Source: Candidatus Harrysmithiimonas galli (GTDB taxonomy: Bacteria > Bacillota > Bacilli > CAJFEE01). Taken from it: 64,000 nucleotides of DNA. The DNA is taken from contig CAJFEE010000010.1 of assembly GCA_904373265.1 (NCBI GenBank), positions 1 to 64,000 on the forward strand, written 5' to 3'. Shown piece by piece: positions 1,882 to 36,560 of the stretch. Below the pieces are notes generated by a model that worked only from the letters and a program-made list of their open reading frames with translations, made no database searches and was not told the DNA's origin. Each line of letters starts with the position of its first letter. Position 1 is the first letter of the stretch. The position numbers were made by a program, and so were the translations under genes.

Positions 1882-1936
1882 GTACGAGTAGGAATGGATA
1901 AAAAAGATGTCCCAAGTAGAAGCGGAGGGAATGAAT

Positions 1937-3415
1937 ATGGAAAAAGTAGATATTTTTAAAGATATTGCAGAACGTACAGGAGGTGATATTTATTTAGGCG
2001 TAGTCGGTCCTGTACGTACAGGAAAATCTACATTTATCAAGCGGTTTATGGAGTTAGTTGTAATTCCAAATATTACATCTGAAGCAGAAAAAGCACGGGC
2101 ACAGGATGAATTGCCACAAAGTGCGACTGGAAAAACAATTATGACGACTGAACCGAAATTTGTGCCAAATACAGCAGTAAAGGTAAAAATTGAAGAAGGG
2201 CTGGAAGTAAGTATTCGATTGGTTGATTGTGTTGGGTATGCTGTTGTGGGTGCACAAGGATATACGGATGAAAATGGACCACGTATGATTCATACTCCAT
2301 GGTATGAGGAAGCCATTCCATTTGAAGAGGCAGCAGAAATCGGAACACGAAAAGTGATCCAGGAGCATTCAACGATTGGAATCATTGTAACAACAGATGG
2401 ATCAATTGGAGAGATTGCACGCCATGATTATGTGCAGGCTGAGGAACAAGTTGTAGAAGAAATGAAAGCAGTAGGCAAGCCTTTTATTTTGGTTTTGAAT
2501 TCTGCTCAGCCTTATGCAACTGAAACGGAATATTTAAGGCAGGAACTACAAAATAAATACGATATTCCGGTATTGGCAATGGGTGCTGAATCAATGAATG
2601 AAAATGAGGTTCTTTCGATTCTTCGTGAGTCATTATATGAATTTCCAGTTCTGGAGGTGAATGTAAATTTACCAAGTTGGGTTATGGTATTGCGTGAAGA
2701 ACATTGGTTGCGTCAAAGCTTTCAAAATGCAGTGAAGGATACGGTTCAAGATATTAAACGTTTAAGAGATGTTGGTCGGGTTGTGGAAATGTTTGCAGAA
2801 TATGATTTTATTTGTCAGGCGTCTATGGCAGGCATTGATTTGGGTCAAGGCATTGCAGAAATCGATCTGTTTGCACCAGATGAATTGTACGATCAAGTTT
2901 TAAAAGAGATTGTCGGTGTGGAAATTACGGGGCGGGATCATTTACTTCAACTGATGCAGGAATTGGTATACGCTAAGCAAGAATATGATCAAGTCGAAGA
3001 AGCTTTAAAAATGGTAAAACAAACCGGTTATGGTATTGCTGCACCAAGTTTGCAGGAAATGAGTCTGGATGAGCCAGAAATTATTAAGCAGGGTGCTCGA
3101 TTTGGTGTCAAATTAAAGGCAGTTGCGCCGTCTATTCATATGATTAAAGTTGATGTAGAAAGTGTGTTTGAACCGATTATTGGTACAGAAAAGCAAAGTA
3201 CAGAGCTGGTTAGCTATTTGATGCAGGATTTTGAAGAAGATCCGCTATCCATCTGGAATTCCGAAATTTTTGGTCGTTCCCTCAGTTCAATTGTTCGGGA
3301 AGGGATTCAAGGTAAGCTGGCCTTAATGCCAGAGAATGCACGCTATAAGCTTAAGGAAACATTGGAAAGAATTATTAACGAAGGCTCAGGCGGTTTAATC
3401 GCAATTATTCTTTAA
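1937..3415 (+). CDS. spoIVA: Stage IV sporulation protein A, coat-basement ATPase
   Basis: SpoIVA is made in the mother cell and polymerises, driven by ATP hydrolysis, into the basement layer on which the spore coat is built; it is also needed for cortex assembly. The product starting at 1937 has 492 residues, the length of the B. subtilis protein, and is very similar along its whole length as I recall it. The Walker A region GPVRTGKST lies at about residues 24-32, and the conserved C-terminal end SGGLIAIIL is intact. Start choice: GGAGGG at 1924-1929 is seven bases before the ATG at 1937; the ATG at 1931 is too close, and an upstream ATG at 1907 lacks a site. It stands alone with its own candidate sigma-E promoter and is firm evidence for an endospore former. 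Confidence 0.98.
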   Translation: MEKVDIFKDIAERTGGDIYLGVVGPVRTGKSTFIKRFMELVVIPNITSEAEKARAQDELPQSATGKTIMTTEPKFVPNTAVKVKIEEGLEVSIRLVDCVGYAVVGAQGYTDENGPRMIHTPWYEEAIPFEEAAEIGTRKVIQEHSTIGIIVTTDGSIGEIARHDYVQAEEQVVEEMKAVGKPFILVLNSAQPYATETEYLRQELQNKYDIPVLAMGAESMNENEVLSILRESLYEFPVLEVNVNLPSWVMVLREEHWLRQSFQNAVKDTVQDIKRLRDVGRVVEMFAEYDFICQASMAGIDLGQGIAEIDLFAPDELYDQVLKEIVGVEITGRDHLLQLMQELVYAKQEYDQVEEALKMVKQTGYGIAAPSLQEMSLDEPEIIKQGARFGVKLKAVAPSIHMIKVDVESVFEPIIGTEKQSTELVSYLMQDFEEDPLSIWNSEIFGRSLSSIVREGIQGKLALMPENARYKLKETLERIINEGSGGLIAIIL

Positions 3416-4997: not shown

Positions 4998-6521
4998 TTA
5001 AAAGATTAGCATTGCAATGGAAAGAATAATGACAGAGACAATAAGTAAAAAGATGAGCAACTTCCAGACAAATTTCAACCATGTGCCATATTCAACTTTA
5101 GCGATACTTAATCCACCCATTACAACACCAGAGGTTGGTGTAAATAAATTGACTAAACCAGATCCAGCAGTAAAAATCATAATCATAACCTCGGGAGATA
5201 AATTGAGGTTTTTTGCAAGTGGTGCAAAAATCGGAATAGATACGGTTGCAAGCCCCGAGGATGATGGGATGAGAAAGGATAAGCCCAAATAAATACAATA
5301 GGATAGTGTAACAAAGGCAATGCCGGAAATATTGTTTAGTATATTGGAAGCTTTATCCAAAATAAATAAATCCAACCCAGAGTTTGACATAATAAATGAA
5401 ATACCGCGGGAAATCCCAAGAATCAGTGCGACGCCAACCATGTCTGCTGCCCCGATAATAAATGAGTCCATCAAATCTTTTTCACTTAAACGATATACAA
5501 TGCCGATAATTAAGCTCATAATAAAAAACCATGCCGCCAACTCTGGAAATGACCATTCACCCAATGCAGAACCGGTTAAAAATCTTGTCGGTTCAAAAAT
5601 ATGAACCCCGAAATCTGCCCATGGAACAACCCCTAGGATCATAATGAAAAAAGCAATTCCGAATAAAATTAAGACCCACTTACGTTTTTTTGTAAACGTT
5701 AGTGTTTCCTCCTGATGATGGCTGTAAGCTTCATCTACATCTTTCCATTCACTTTCTGACAGTATAGAAGCCTCACGTTTGTTTCTTACTTTATTAGCAT
5801 AGCGCATCACAAAAAAGATAGAAATGGCTAAAGTGGCAATCCAAAGAAACAATCCGATGCCAATCATAATTCCTTGATTGACATTGATACCAACAGATTT
5901 TGCAGATGCTGCCGCAACACCAGGTGCAAATGGATTGACAGTTGATCCCAATGTTCCACAACCTGCTCCGAGCATAATGGTTGCAACTGCAACAAGTGGA
6001 TCAAATCCTACAGCAAGCATTGTTGCCGTAATGAGAGCATAAAAGGCTAGGCTTTCTTCGGCCATACCGTAGGTTGTTCCTCCAAGTGAGAAAATAATCA
6101 TCAGTATGGGAATAAGCAGGAGTTCTTTTCCTTTCATGCGTTTTACAATGGCAGCTACACCAGCGTCCAATGCACCAGTCTTGGTTATAACGCCTAAAAA
6201 GCCGCCAATAATTAAAATAAAAAATGCAACATCAATGGCTCCGGCTAAAGAGCCATTGTTCCATACGTCGATATATGGATGATCCAGAGCCTTTAAATCA
6301 TCCAGTGATTGAATAATTTTTCCTTCCTGCATGTTTTCTAATATTCGTTCTTGTGTATTAGAGTCTTTAATGCCGATCATCCCGTTTATTGGGGCCATAA
6401 TGACGTCATTGATTTTTGCTGGAATAACATCTGGAACGAATTGTGTAATCAGTCCAACAGCGACTGTTAAAATGAGTAGTACTGTATATGCGGTGGGGAA
6501 TTTGAATTTTTTCTTATCCAT
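4998..6521 (-). CDS. YfcC-family membrane carrier, probable arginine/ornithine antiporter
   Basis: A 507-residue integral membrane protein with about twelve hydrophobic segments. It resembles the YfcC/DcuC-like carriers (C4-dicarboxylate anaerobic carrier superfamily), with a central glycine-rich half around GGTTYGMAEE and a C-terminal region with VNLFTPTSGVVMGGL. Members of this family fill the ArcD position in several Firmicutes arginine deiminase clusters, where the expected task is to exchange external arginine for internal ornithine. The gene follows arcC on the same strand, but a strong hairpin lies between them (6575-6643), so it may be expressed at a lower level. An AAGGTG site precedes the ATG. 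The substrate is inferred from context, not from the sequence. Confidence 0.85.
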   Translation of the reverse strand: MDKKKFKFPTAYTVLLILTVAVGLITQFVPDVIPAKINDVIMAPINGMIGIKDSNTQERILENMQEGKIIQSLDDLKALDHPYIDVWNNGSLAGAIDVAFFILIIGGFLGVITKTGALDAGVAAIVKRMKGKELLLIPILMIIFSLGGTTYGMAEESLAFYALITATMLAVGFDPLVAVATIMLGAGCGTLGSTVNPFAPGVAAASAKSVGINVNQGIMIGIGLFLWIATLAISIFFVMRYANKVRNKREASILSESEWKDVDEAYSHHQEETLTFTKKRKWVLILFGIAFFIMILGVVPWADFGVHIFEPTRFLTGSALGEWSFPELAAWFFIMSLIIGIVYRLSEKDLMDSFIIGAADMVGVALILGISRGISFIMSNSGLDLFILDKASNILNNISGIAFVTLSYCIYLGLSFLIPSSSGLATVSIPIFAPLAKNLNLSPEVMIMIFTAGSGLVNLFTPTSGVVMGGLSIAKVEYGTWLKFVWKLLIFLLIVSVIILSIAMLIF

Positions 6522-6574
6522 GTTTTCACCTTCTTTATGTGTAGTAACAAAATCAAGTTCATATTTGTTATAAA

Positions 6575-6643
6575 AATCCGAGCAAGAGACTGCGCAGGTT
6601 TTGCAAAATCAGAAACAGATCTGCTTTGTCCTCTGCTCGGATT
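6575..6643 (-). terminator. Hairpin between arcC and the antiporter gene
   Basis: A perfect 10-base inverted repeat (AATCCGAGCA at 6575-6584 and its complement at 6634-6643) followed on the minus strand by a short T-run. It lies inside the arc cluster and could partly terminate transcription between arcC and the antiporter. The long loop contains secondary pairings such as GCAGATCTG. Confidence 0.65.
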
Positions 6644-6685
6644 ATTTGATTGAATGTGGGTTACCAGCTGGAATGATCAAGGAAT

Positions 6686-7621
6686 TTATGCATGAATATA
6701 GGTGCCAGTTTTTCCTTGTAAGGCTTCTTTTGCTTTTTCTAAGGATGTAATAATGGCTGTTCCATCTGGTGTGTTCTCTACAAATTGAATACATGCTTCT
6801 ACTTTTGGCAGCATGGATCCAGGGGCGAAATGCCCTTCTTGAATATAACGTTTTGCTTCATCTACTGTGATAGAAGTCAAAGCTTTTTGATTAGGCTGGT
6901 TATAATGAATGAATACTTGTTCGACTGCTGTTAAAATAATCAGCATTTTGGCATGAATATCTTGTGCTAGCTTAGCTGAAGATTTGTCTTTATCAATAAC
7001 GGCATCGATTCCTTGAAGACCATCGTCTGTTTGAATAACAGGTATACCGCCACCACCGACTGTAATTACCACATCTTCATGCTCTACAAGCTGTTTAATG
7101 GCTTCGAGTTCGACAATTTCCTGTGGTTCAGGAGAAGGAACAACTCGGCGATATCCACGACCAGAGTCCTCTATGAAATGATAGCCTTTTTCTTGTGCAA
7201 TTTGATCGGCTTCTGTTTTATTGTAAAAAAGTCCAATTGGTTTTGTTGGATGTACAAAAGCTGGGTCGTCTTTATTGATAATGACCTCAGTAACAATACA
7301 GGCCACCTCTTTATCGATATTACGGTCATCAAGCTCTTGTTTAATGGATTGCTCCAGATGGTAACCAATATATCCTTGGCTCATGGCTCCACATTCTGGA
7401 AACGGCATCGGTGTTTTCGTTGCGCCATGTGTAGCGGCATATTCCATTGCTGAGTTTATCATTCCAACCTGAGGACCGTTCCCATGTCCAACAATGACTG
7501 TATAGCCTTCTTCGATTAAATCTACGATATTTTTTGCAGCTTTTTTTACAAGTTGCAATTGTTCTTCTGATGTATTACCGAGTGCATTTCCGCCCAAGGC
7601 AATGACTAATTTTTTATTCAT
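6686..7621 (-). CDS. arcC: Carbamate kinase
   Basis: Last enzyme of the arginine deiminase pathway: carbamoyl phosphate plus ADP gives ATP, ammonia and carbon dioxide. The 311-residue length and the motifs are typical: ALGGNALG at the N-terminus, GHGNGPQVG near residue 47, the central VGGGGIPV and the C-terminal FAPGSMLPKVEA. The gene is 14 bases after argF and has a TAGGAG site before its ATG, so it belongs to the arcA-argF-arcC transcript. Carbamate kinases with these motifs are well separated from other amino-acid kinases; confidence is high. Confidence 0.96.
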   Translation of the reverse strand: MNKKLVIALGGNALGNTSEEQLQLVKKAAKNIVDLIEEGYTVIVGHGNGPQVGMINSAMEYAATHGATKTPMPFPECGAMSQGYIGYHLEQSIKQELDDRNIDKEVACIVTEVIINKDDPAFVHPTKPIGLFYNKTEADQIAQEKGYHFIEDSGRGYRRVVPSPEPQEIVELEAIKQLVEHEDVVITVGGGGIPVIQTDDGLQGIDAVIDKDKSSAKLAQDIHAKMLIILTAVEQVFIHYNQPNQKALTSITVDEAKRYIQEGHFAPGSMLPKVEACIQFVENTPDGTAIITSLEKAKEALQGKTGTYIHA

Positions 7622-7635
7622 TTTTCTATCTCCTA

Positions 7636-8631
7636 TTATGCGCCAATTGTAGCAAGAATAATGGCTTTGATGGTGTGCATTCGGTTTTCTGCCTCATCAA
7701 ATACAACCGACTGTATTGATTCAAATACTTCATCGGTTACTTCCAGCTCATTTAGACCGAATTTTTGCCCAACCATTTTTCCTGTATCGGTGTTGAGATC
7801 ATGAAAGGCAGGGAGACAGTGCATAAAGATGGCATGTTCGTTTGCATTTTCCATCACTGCACGGTTGACTTGGTAAGGTTTTAAAAGTGTTAAGCGCTGC
7901 TCCCATACTTCATCTGGTTCACCCATTGATACCCAAACATCGGTATAAATAACATCCGCATTTTTGGTTCCTTCTTGTACATTTTCTGTTAAGGTAATGG
8001 TTGCACCAGAGTTTTTTGCAATTTCTTTACAGGTTTGTACCAGAGATTCTTCTGGGAATAATTGTTTTGGTGCAACGGCTGTAAAGTGTAAACCCATTTT
8101 TGCACAAGCAACCATTAAAGAATTTCCCATATTGTTTCGTGCATCGCCCATATAGACAAAGCGGATGCCTTTTAAGTAGCCAAATTTTTCTTCAATGGTG
8201 AGTAGATCGGCAATCATTTGGGTTGGATGGAAATCATCAGTCAATCCGTTCCATACGGGTACACCAGAATATTTTGCCAAGTCTTCAACAATTTTTTGGT
8301 CAAAGCCACGGTATTCAATTCCATCATACATTCGACCCAACACGCGTGCTGTGTCAGCAATCGATTCTTTTTTTCCCATTTGTGATGACCCAGCATCTAG
8401 AAAGGTTACGCCCATTCCAAGATCATTGGCTGCGACTTCAAATGAGCATCTTGTCCGTGTAGAAGTTTTTTCAAAAAGAAGTACAATGTTTTTTCCTTTA
8501 AGTAAATCATGTTTGATACCAGTATGTTTTAATTTTTTTAGATGTTTAGATAAATCAATTAGGTAACGAATTTCATCTGGTGTAAAATCCAGTAGTTTTA
8601 AAAATGAACGTCCTCGTAAATTTAATCCCAT
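7636..8631 (-). CDS. argF: Ornithine carbamoyltransferase (catabolic, arcB-type context)
   Basis: Interconverts citrulline plus phosphate with ornithine plus carbamoyl phosphate; here it would work in the catabolic direction between ArcA and ArcC. The 331-residue protein has the carbamoyl-phosphate motif STRTR at residues 57-61, the ornithine-side motif HCLPAFHD near residue 270, and the family block [11 protein letters not shown] in the second domain. A GGAGG site precedes the ATG, and it begins 27 bases after arcA. The sequence alone does not separate anabolic from catabolic enzymes; the catabolic role rests on its place in the arc cluster, for which arcB is the other common name. Confidence 0.95.
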
Positions 8632-8658
8632 TTTTTTTCCTCCATTTTTGGTTTATGT

Positions 8659-9879
8659 TTAATGTGCGCGTAATAAAGGCATGGACATGCATCGTGGACC
8701 ACCACGTCCACGAGATAGTTCGGATGAAGGGATAACATGTGTTTGAATTCCATGATCCCGAAGCAGTTCGTTGGTGACATAGTTCCGAGAATAGACGATG
8801 ACATGTCCTGGCTGAATACATAATGTATTAGACCCATCGTTCCACTGTTCACGTTCAGCAGTAATATCATCGCCTCCACCACATGGGATAAGTGTTACTT
8901 TATCCAAATGTAAATATTTTTCTAAAATCTGCTCTAGACTGATATTCAGTTTGTCAATTTTTAATTCTTCATTTTTATCCGCTGCTGTAATTTCAAATAC
9001 TTGAAGTGGTCCTTGAATATGCGGATGAATGGTAAATTTGTCTACATCAACTTGTGTGAATACGGTATCTAAGTGCATATATGCCCGTGTTTTCGGAATG
9101 TCAATTGCCAATATCTTTGTAATGGAATTTCCTTCTGTATGAAAAAATATATTTTTTGCGAGTTCTTCAATAGCCTCTGAAGTTGTTCGCTGTGAAATTC
9201 CAATTGCAATCACGTCTTCGGAAAGATTTAAAATATCTCCGCCTTCAATAGAATGTGTATAATCACGGTTGTATAGCTTTTTTGTATCCTTGTAGTCCGG
9301 ATGATATTTGAAAATATAATCGGCATACAAGGTTTCACGATTACGGGTAACAGAATACATTCGATTTAAGCTGATTTTATCTCCGATGACAGCAAATGGA
9401 TCCCGAGTAAAATATAAATTGGGCATCGGATCTGTAAGGAAGGGATAGTTTTGATTGGTTAATTCACCTAGACTAACCGTATCGGTTTGTGGTAAATCTT
9501 TTTTTCGAATCCCAGCCATGGTAATATCGACAAGTGTTTTTGGATCGGAGATATTTTCCAAATAAGCATATACTGCTTCACTGATTTTAGGGTCTGTAAT
9601 CCCAGCTTCTTGAATAAATTGTTTGATAAATTGTGGCTTAACGGTTTCATCTTGTAAAACTGCTGCTGCCAAATCAGCTAAATAGACAACCTCTGTTCCG
9701 TTTTCTCGTAAAACTTGTGCAAAGGCATCATGCTCCTTTTGTGCTTCTTCAAGCCAGGGAATATCGTCGAATAGCAATCGTTCCAGATATTCGGGGGTTA
9801 AATTTTCAATTTCTTTTCCCGGGCGATGAAGCAAGACTTTTTTTAATGGCATAATTTCATTTCGAATATGAACGCCCAT
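8659..9879 (-). CDS. arcA: Arginine deiminase
   Basis: First step of the pathway: arginine is hydrolysed to citrulline and ammonia. The 406-residue product carries the expected guanidine-transferase motifs [20 protein letters not shown] and [11 protein letters not shown], and the C-terminal [14 protein letters not shown] in which Cys397 is the catalytic nucleophile. AAGGAGG precedes the ATG. It is the promoter-proximal gene of the minus-strand cluster arcA-argF-arcC-antiporter-membrane protein, which supplies ATP and ammonia from arginine, typically under oxygen limitation or acid stress. No ArgR/ArcR-type regulator gene lies nearby. Confidence 0.97.
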
Positions 9880-22637: not shown

Positions 22638-23432
22638 ATGGTTTATACGATTCAAGCGTTGAGTCAGTTGGCAGGTATTTCGACACGAACACTGCGTTAT
22701 TATGATGAAATTGGACTGTTGAAACCAGCCTATACAACTGAAGCTGGATATCGGATGTACGAAGAGACGCAGGTTAATTTATTGCAGGAGATTTTATTTT
22801 TTCGGTCTTTGGATTTTTCGTTACAAAAAATTTCTCAGTTAATTGGTCATTCCAACCATAATCGACTGAATATTTTATGTGAACAACGGCGGTTGCTTTT
22901 GGAACGAAAAAAGACATTGGATCAAATGATTGAAACGATTGAACAAACCATCCAAGATGAAAAAGGAGAGATTAAAATGACAGATGCACAGAAGTTTGTT
23001 GCGCTTAAAGAAAGACAAATTCAAGAAAATGAAAAGAAATATGGAAAAGAACTTCGTGACAAATATGGGAATGATGTAATGGATGCAGCGAATGAAAGAC
23101 TGAAGCAAATGGATGAAACCATATTTCAAAGTACAAAGAGACTGGAAAAGGAAATTTTACATCAACTGGAAAAGGCTTTTCAAACTGGCGATCCGTCGGG
23201 AGAGGAAGCCAAGATTTTGGCACAAATGCATAAAATATGGATTTGCCGCTATTGGGATACCTATACAAAAAAGGCACATGCTGGATTGGCTCAAACCTAT
23301 GTAGATGATATACGAATGAAAAAATATTATGATCCAGATGACAGAGGACTGGCAAAATTTTTACGGGATGCCATTTGGATTGATACTGGAATGGAGGAAA
23401 AAGTGCTTCCATTTGACGAAAAGAAGAAGTAA
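22638..23432 (+). CDS. MerR-family regulator with TipAS-type drug-binding domain (Mta-like)
   Basis: Transcription activator of the Mta/TipA type. Residues 1-70 form the MerR winged helix (YTIQALSQLAGISTRTLRYY, then EIGLLKPA), about 71-110 a coiled-coil dimerisation helix, and about 115-260 a TipAS-like helical domain that in relatives binds hydrophobic drugs or peptides. Length is 264 residues. AAAGGAG precedes the ATG, and a 19-base-spacer promoter with a dyad suggests autoregulation. No multidrug transporter is adjacent, so its targets must lie elsewhere, as for B. subtilis Mta. Confidence 0.9.
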   Translation: MVYTIQALSQLAGISTRTLRYYDEIGLLKPAYTTEAGYRMYEETQVNLLQEILFFRSLDFSLQKISQLIGHSNHNRLNILCEQRRLLLERKKTLDQMIETIEQTIQDEKGEIKMTDAQKFVALKERQIQENEKKYGKELRDKYGNDVMDAANERLKQMDETIFQSTKRLEKEILHQLEKAFQTGDPSGEEAKILAQMHKIWICRYWDTYTKKAHAGLAQTYVDDIRMKKYYDPDDRGLAKFLRDAIWIDTGMEEKVLPFDEKKK

Positions 23433-23872: not shown

Positions 23873-24232
23873 TCACGAACAAAAATATTTACTCCATTGA
23901 TTTTTTCTTCGTTGTTCTGAAGCGACATGTTCTCTTTGTTGTTTTCCTTTACAATTTACTGACGTACATCCTATATTAGCTGTTGCACCATACTCAATTG
24001 GAATAGTAATACGAAGTGTTTGTGTAATTATCAGTTTATTCCCATGACAGCATGGATTTTTTCTATCTTCACAAATTATAATTTCTGGATCTTCAACACA
24101 TTCCGTTTCAACATGACCTACAATGGCAAATGGGTGAAATTGAATCGGCACACTTACATTGGCATGATGTACAGCTATAGCAGAGCAAGTGTTCTCATCT
24201 CTAACCTCCTGATGGTCTGTTTTATTACTCAT
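23873..24232 (-). CDS. Cysteine-rich protein, paralog of the upstream gene, unknown function
   Basis: Not recognised. The 119-residue product aligns end to end with the protein encoded just upstream: shared ENxTC near residue 13, A-I, V-P-I...PFA near residue 28-36, DP near 48, ITQ near 69 and YGATANIG..SVNC at 81-94. Cysteines lie at 16, 45, 54, 61, 62, 89, 94 and 118. The C-terminal 25 residues are basic and differ from the paralog. No signal peptide or membrane segment. It starts two bases after the upstream stop, with its binding site inside the end of that gene, so the two are translationally coupled. The alternating hydrophobic pattern suggests a beta-rich fold. A spore-surface or structural role is possible but unproven. 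Confidence 0.75.
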   Translation of the reverse strand: MSNKTDHQEVRDENTCSAIAVHHANVSVPIQFHPFAIVGHVETECVEDPEIIICEDRKNPCCHGNKLIITQTLRITIPIEYGATANIGCTSVNCKGKQQREHVASEQRRKNQWSKYFCS

Positions 24233-24234
24233 AA

Positions 24235-24579
24235 CTATTGATCCTCATTATGACCGCAATTTCTACAAATATTTTTCTCACTTGATTCAATGCAATTTAC
24301 AAAAGTATCTCCAACCACTGCTTCTGCTCCAAATACGACAGGGACAGCGACACAAATATCTTGTGTAATTGTGAAGGAACAAGAACCATTTTTTATTCCA
24401 GGACATGGAATGTTTCCAGATCTTACGACTGGGTCTCCACAACATGTTGTTACTGTTGTTCCTGCATGTGCAAAAGGTGTAACAGATACAGGTACACAAA
24501 TAGAAGCTTTTTGATAACCAATAGCTGGGCACGTCTCATTTTCAGATTGTAAAATTTTAATATCTTCAAAGTTTGTCAT
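24235..24579 (-). CDS. Cysteine-rich protein, first of a paralogous pair, unknown function
   Basis: Not recognised with confidence. 114 residues with ten cysteines at 17, 28, 46, 47, 59, 67, 76, 96, 105 and 108. Conserved blocks shared with its neighbour are CPAI (17-20), VPV..TPFA (29-37), CCGDP (46-50), FTITQ (69-73), VFGAEAVVGDTFVNC (82-96). It ends in a CxxCGHNEDQ tail. There is no signal peptide or membrane segment. A strong AAAGGAG site precedes the ATG. The layout (N-terminal cysteine, central CC, C-terminal CxxC, short beta-like strands) recalls small cysteine-rich spore coat or appendage subunits that cross-link by disulfides, but this is resemblance in style, not demonstrated homology. 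Confidence 0.78.
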   Translation of the reverse strand: MTNFEDIKILQSENETCPAIGYQKASICVPVSVTPFAHAGTTVTTCCGDPVVRSGNIPCPGIKNGSCSFTITQDICVAVPVVFGAEAVVGDTFVNCIESSEKNICRNCGHNEDQ

Positions 24580-24992
24580 GATAAAAATCTCCTTTCAAAT
24601 TTAAGTTTCTATACACCATATGCATGTACAAATTATTGATAACCGCATTTGTCTTGTATATTTGAAAATTACATTTTTTTTGATATAAAAGCCTATTTTT
24701 GATATTACTAAATATTATGGTTTATTTTCTTATCCAATCCATTTTCCTTTTTATCATTTTTGGATATATCCGGATATAGTGACAATGTTTCAAATCAGCA
24801 GTTATATGATCGCATATGTTTTTACTGAATCAATATGCTATATAGCAATATGGTTCAATGGGTGCCAATTTAAAATTATATTTAAAAACATTGCATTTGG
24901 CATGGGAGTTTTATGTATAAAATCATCTTTTTTTTAAAGTATCATCAACAAATAAAATAAAAGGTAAGCTCTTTTTTTGTTAAAGCAAAATA
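24580..24992. promoter_or_regulatory. Upstream region of the cysteine-rich pair
   Basis: No gene. On the minus strand CATATGGT (complement of 24615-24622) lies 36-43 bases before the start and resembles the -10 element of mother-cell sporulation sigma factors (CATAnnnT), but no matching -35 is convincing. The rest is AT-rich without clear structure up to the znu terminator. Confidence 0.3.
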
Positions 24993-36388: not shown

Positions 36389-36560
36389 AAACCAAATGGA
36401 AATTCAGCAAATATCTATAAGAGTTTGACTGGGGTATCGGTTTATTCTTGGAAATGGTTTATCAAAAAACAGGTTCTGCCTTGATCAAAAAACAAAAGAC
36501 TAGGACAGAGGAATGATTATACAATCTCAATCCCAGCTTTTGTCTGGGATTTTATTTTTT
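36389..36560 (+). promoter_or_regulatory. panB leader with terminator and alternative pairing
   Basis: The leader contains an intrinsic terminator, ATCCCAG (36530-36536) pairing with CTGGGAT (36544-36550) and followed by TTTATTTTTT, which lies before panB. Upstream, CTGGGGT at 36429-36435 could pair with the same ATCCCAG arm (seven pairs, one G-U) and so prevent the terminator. This is the layout of an attenuator or riboswitch. A 'pan' RNA motif upstream of pantothenate genes has been described in Firmicutes, but I could not confirm its consensus here. Confidence 0.65.

Follow-up and report, generated by a model that had tools for sequence, protein, structure and literature searches.

Two short adjacent genes in Candidatus Harrysmithiimonas galli (2.7 Mb genome), located in the 64,000-nucleotide stretch of DNA that was analysed here as a whole (the window), raise the question of what a pair of related, cysteine-rich proteins might be made for. 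A preliminary description, based on the DNA letters, proposed either a spore coat, exosporium or appendage component or, given the neighboring zinc uptake genes, a metal-related role. Its account of the genes themselves was accurate: two minus-strand ORFs encoding proteins of 114 and 119 residues (P1 and P2, respectively; Table 1) were found at the positions it gave, the P1 stop and the P2 ATG being separated by only 2 bases, with ten and eight Cys, a central CC and a C-terminal CxxC (CRNC) in P1 and a basic tail in P2, while a hydrophobic export signal was not visible in either sequence. P1 and P2 are tandem paralogs, as had been suggested: they were aligned by BLASTP over 99 columns with 37% identity (E 1e-16), far above chance. 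Both are real genes, judged from a single search with a P1-led alignment, which covered 84,980 species genomes and recovered P1 relatives in 80 loci at 52–70% identity (BLASTP: up to 72%, in a shorter aligned region), and from the conservation of each of the ten P1 Cys in at least 97% of 67 P1-type proteins.

Table 1. Positions of the genes, modules, signals and related loci considered in the text (window coordinates, unless a locus is named).
Feature	Position	Strand	Description
P1	24235..24579	minus	114 aa, 10 Cys; two tandem ~35-residue modules; ORF with Shine-Dalgarno-like sequence
P2	23873..24232	minus	119 aa, 8 Cys, basic tail; second gene of the pair, with Shine-Dalgarno-like sequence
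Module 1 of P1	24438..24543	minus	residues about 13-47, C17...C46/C47; hhalign half-profiles
Module 2 of P1	24285..24390	minus	residues about 64-98, C67...C96; hhalign half-profiles
Candidate sigma-K -10 element CATATGGT	24615..24622	minus	starts at -43 from the P1 ATG; within the ortholog -10 peak
Intrinsic terminator between znuB and P1	24978..25038	minus	hairpin and U-rich tail, -22.2 kcal/mol, z -7.1
Terminator-like long hairpin downstream of P2	23640..23750	minus	-31.1 kcal/mol, z -5.8
SpoIVA gene	1907-3415		encoded by the host
Fused P1-type cores	L146 4455-5303; L144; L148; L149 5396-6238; L136 5336-6160; L067 6300-7115; L069 3932-4777		shared N-terminal domain
Von Willebrand A protein	L077 3448-4821; L078 3439-4812; L079 3076-4575; L083; L086; L098; L105; L111	minus	Cys-containing C-terminus (CCES/CCEA...)

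The family formed by P1 and P2 is uncatalogued, without an entry in Pfam or NCBIfam. Neither protein matched a Pfam profile (hmmscan, E ≤ 1) or an NCBIfam model, and these two collections revealed no recognised enzyme family and no known metal-binding domain. Sequences of the PDB were matched neither by P1 nor by profiles built from relatives, and no match to the pair was found in plasmid and phage collections. Matches inside 2160-aa NRPS-like proteins of three genomes (G072, G109 and G142) were rejected as chance.

A duplication within each protein had been missed in the preliminary description. It consists of a module of about 35 residues, C-x6-Q-x4-V-x-VPV-x5-A-x2-G-x5-C, present in tandem in the family members: profiles of the N-terminal and C-terminal halves were aligned by hhalign over 35 columns without gaps (probability 70, E 4e-5) with a score of 22.7, against a top score of 14.5 in 40 column shuffles. 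Among 12 P2-type proteins, C17, C46 and C96 were kept in all and C67 in 75%. The AlphaFold2 model of P1 had eight strands, four per half (pLDDT 73, pTM 0.38), and that of P2 the same eight-strand pattern (pLDDT 75.5, pTM 0.41), with a local pLDDT of roughly 80–97 in most strands of both proteins. The models suggest that the fold may be an open structure, perhaps needing partners to close it. No credible fold match was obtained with either model in Foldseek; matches to the CDTb, aerolysin and lysenin pores (TM 0.14–0.34, with models of pTM ~0.4) were rejected as reflecting only long beta-hairpins, and no relation of P1 and P2 to toxins is claimed.

Almost all of the 80 P1-type loci came from Clostridia, many of them from gut or rumen samples, with carriers in Oscillospiraceae, Lachnospiraceae, Christensenellaceae, Anaerotignum, Agathobaculum and Pseudoflavonifractor; Anaerotignum lactatifermentans, Pseudoflavonifractor capillosus, Oscillibacter valericigenes and Hespellia stercorisuis are culturable ones. 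In profile searches covering 400 genomes of the host's class and 399 of its phylum, about a dozen genomes yielded relatives regarded as true. These often occur as small gene clusters, which in G010, G260 and G314 combine two short paralogs with one member of 240–270 aa carrying a C-terminal extension. A P2-type neighbour was recognised at about 11 of the 80 loci, i.e., approximately one in seven, as a lower bound; in ten of these it followed directly downstream, its start overlapping the P1 stop or lying no more than ~25 bases from it, as in the window. In Hespellia stercorisuis, P1 is immediately followed by a P2-type gene whose product shares 41% identity with the P2 of the window. At other loci, the P1 core carries a fused N-terminal domain, or a fused second copy comes after it. 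Since most P1-type genes have no P2-type neighbour that can be recognised, P2 is, on the evidence of gene arrangement, not a subunit that the family as a whole requires, and in most loci it appears to be either absent or too diverged for detection. The fused P1-type cores listed in Table 1 are located behind a shared N-terminal domain of ~170 residues (..PF.....D..L....GQNQRFCY...G...), which had no confident Pfam match. The P1 ortholog of a MAG locus (L123 4860-5350) was apparently frameshifted, its P2-type neighbour being intact.

The gene tree placed the P1 and P2 of the window together with the P1/P2-type proteins of Clostridia (support 99/93) and the P2 of the window in the P2-type group (81/95), and the long members of G010, G260 and G314, representing the Bacilli clusters, fell apart from them. 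A short member of G010, with a very long branch, grouped with the P2-type rows, a placement that is untrustworthy. The tree was based on only 96 columns, too few to place P1 within Clostridia or to name a donor. P1-type genes were present in a single genome of the 400 sampled from the class, namely that of the host, and the pair was not found in the sole other genome of the host's order among those sampled. Because of the tree grouping and this solitary occurrence of the P1-type in the class, a transfer from Clostridia is the simplest reading, and the P1-P2 operon was probably acquired in this way. The G+C fraction of P1 (0.37) and P2 (0.35) did not differ from that of the window (0.35).

The host surroundings of the pair bear on the metal-related proposal, according to which P1 and P2 would be metal storage or chaperone proteins belonging to the neighboring znu/zur locus. 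The znuB-znuC-znuA-zur genes are indeed located upstream on the same strand, and the many Cys with a C-terminal CxxC would suit such a task, but the 511-bp gap between them and P1 contains a strong terminator, none of the Clostridia P1 loci revealed a zinc neighbour in common, the orthologs have a sigma-K promoter (see below) and a known metal-binding domain is missing from both proteins, making the zinc-linked role very improbable. As the zinc operon ends in one hairpin ahead of P1 and a second strong hairpin lies downstream of P2, the pair most likely represents its own transcription unit. On its other side the pair is adjoined by a gene for a MerR regulator with a TipAS antibiotic-recognition domain (22638-23432, plus strand). 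The gene orders menG-hepT-ndk-cheR-aroF-aroB and ypiA-ypiB of the host genome are, as we take it, those of Bacillus, and point to the class Bacilli. Elsewhere in the window, an Rfam 'pan' motif (cis-regulatory RNA; 36405-36512, plus strand) scored just above threshold, and a cluster near spoIVA (4998-9879, minus strand), its genes named by sequence reading, encodes the arginine deiminase pathway (ADI, ornithine carbamoyltransferase, carbamate kinase and an antiporter-like protein).

The regions upstream of P1-type genes (77 orthologs and the window, 78 in total) provided a link to sporulation. The sigma-K consensus AC-N15-17-CATANNNT was present in 38 of the 78 regions, compared to a mean of 2.5 and a maximum of 7 in 200 shuffles. 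At a fixed position between -72 and -52 it was found in 31 of the 78, compared to 6 of 404 other ORFs of the same loci, which served as controls (Fisher p 1e-21), and after similar upstream regions had been collapsed 18 of 53 still had it there (p 6e-14). The starts of CATANNNT peaked sharply at -45 to -36 from the start of the P1 orthologs, an interval of 10 bases, and CATANNNT occurred within a wider tested interval in 12 of the 404 control ORFs (about 3%). Sigma-A-like sites were not enriched in the 78 regions. The consensus applied agrees with the published ones, which are [a/c]AC[a/c]-N16-CATA-N3-TA (PMC5749712) and, for Clostridioides difficile, AC/CATATAAT (PMC3789822). Upstream of the P1 of the window a candidate -10 element is present (Table 1); its -35 position has AT instead of AC, so the window's own putative site is weaker evidence than the pattern of the family. 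A full sigma-K site was not recognisable upstream of the Bacilli homologs outside the window. Late mother-cell expression is thus indicated by promoter prediction in the Clostridia orthologs only.

The gene context of relatives points in the same direction. In one Bacilli genome, G010, three family members have cotJA-cotJB on one side and cotJC on the other (Pfam CotJA, CotJB and Mn_catalase), and in C. difficile the expression of the corresponding cotJ operons is reduced in a sigK mutant (PMC3789822). The cotJA-cotJB...cotJC cluster at locus L029 (5105-11575) encloses, apart from three family members, an EAL-type signalling protein. Family members of G759 and of a Syntrophomonas MAG are flanked by a Gin gene on one side and a YmaF gene on the other. 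At eight loci, mostly from Oscillospiraceae, the divergent neighbour of the P1 ortholog was a leaderless von Willebrand A protein (Table 1), with CATA near -42 from the gene start in four of the six checked, suggesting that this neighbour may be a sigma-K spore-surface protein as well. The gene for SpoIVA was detected in the host, in each of the seven phylum-sample genomes that carry the family and in 46 of the 50 named hosts (the remaining four assemblies had no SpoIVA match), but also in 336 of the 399 sampled phylum genomes; with a base rate of 84% its co-occurrence with the family is consistent with a spore function but not discriminating.

Taken together, P1 and P2 are most likely late mother-cell, disulfide-cross-linked proteins of the outer layers of the spore (coat, crust or exosporium). 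In common with Cys-rich spore proteins, they have a high, conserved Cys content and no visible export signal. Small and leaderless, they would be products of the mother cell at a late stage of sporulation, controlled by sigma-K, and would be deposited in the outer protein layers of the spore, presumably the coat, crust or exosporium. Each protein consists of two copies of a Cys-bounded beta-module, whose conserved Cys are predicted to cross-link after assembly into a reduction-sensitive, insoluble layer, as in ExsY/CotY or CsxA. P1, with its fixed set of ten Cys, would serve as the core subunit; P2, which seems to be a fast-diverging partner retaining the core C17, C46, C67 and C96, probably acts as an adaptor or cap for P1 or co-assembles with it, through a predicted contact. 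The expression data, the small size and the Cys richness would also fit a non-structural sporulation protein, for example one involved in redox buffering or in helping to cross-link other coat proteins; yet no enzyme family was recognised, and the ten conserved Cys together with the repeat backbone favour a structural task, so that we regard this alternative as improbable.

The spore hypothesis of the preliminary description is well supported in its coat/exosporium part, by the fixed-position sigma-K promoter of the orthologs and the cotJ cluster, and unsupported in its appendage part. The latter would have P1 and P2 forming Ena-like endospore fibres instead of a layer. Like the S-ENA (DUF3992) and F-ENA (DUF4183) subunits, which are beta-rich spore-surface proteins of about 100 aa, P1 and P2 are leaderless, Cys-rich, beta-rich paralogs of ~110 aa, and the core is fused to another domain in some relatives. 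However, the DUF3992 and DUF4183 profiles were not matched by P1, P2 or distant homologs (hmmscan, Pfam), neither a PDB sequence match nor a credible fold match was obtained, and no recurrent collagen-like tip or anchor gene was found beside the P1 orthologs. Appendage formation is therefore unlikely, albeit less so than the two other alternatives.

Transmission by spores is assumed for many commensal Clostridia of the gut, whose outer-layer spore proteins are largely uncharacterised. It is conceivable, albeit doubtful in its full extent, that P1-type proteins are a principal Cys-rich scaffold of the outer spore layers in gut Lachnospiraceae, Oscillospiraceae and Christensenellaceae, that they evolved by duplication first of the module and then of the whole gene, and that the P1-P2 operon moved from Clostridia to this lineage of Bacilli. 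A widespread, uncatalogued family with ten conserved Cys and a fixed sigma-K promoter is a testable candidate for the outer spore layers of commensals, and module duplication offers a simple model for the evolution of cross-linked layers.

Among the known systems, ExsY/CotY/CotZ of the Bacillus cereus group exosporium basal layer and the B. subtilis crust are mother-cell proteins, small and Cys-rich like P1 and P2; ExsY and CotY form a crystalline, disulfide-linked exosporium layer (PMC8546674, PMC7333573). In contrast to them, P1 and P2 have another repeat architecture and did not match the Spore-coat_CotZ profile PF10612, which in the host hits only a separate CotZ-family coat protein gene on another contig (C4). 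In Clostridium sporogenes and C. botulinum group I, the Cys-rich CsxA forms a cross-linked lattice of the exosporium by self-assembly, and the exosporium contains a further Cys-rich protein, CsxB (PMC7333573); P1 and P2 share the Cys richness, the likeness to CsxA being by description only, and the P1 loci lack a recurrent counterpart of the collagen-like genes often found near csxA. The Cys-rich exosporium morphogenetic proteins CdeC and CdeM of C. difficile (PMC6101409) have a Cys share similar to that of P1 (8.7–9% against 8.8%). By their descriptions, they are set apart from P1 by size and repeats: CdeC has 405 aa with NPC and CCRQGKGK repeats, whereas CdeM has 161 aa and repeats of a different kind. 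Lachnospiraceae, in which the P1 family is present, are reported to have neither of the two (PMC6101409). By analogy, P1 and P2 most likely work in the manner of these Cys-rich self-assembling spore-layer proteins, i.e., ExsY/CotY, CsxA and CdeC.
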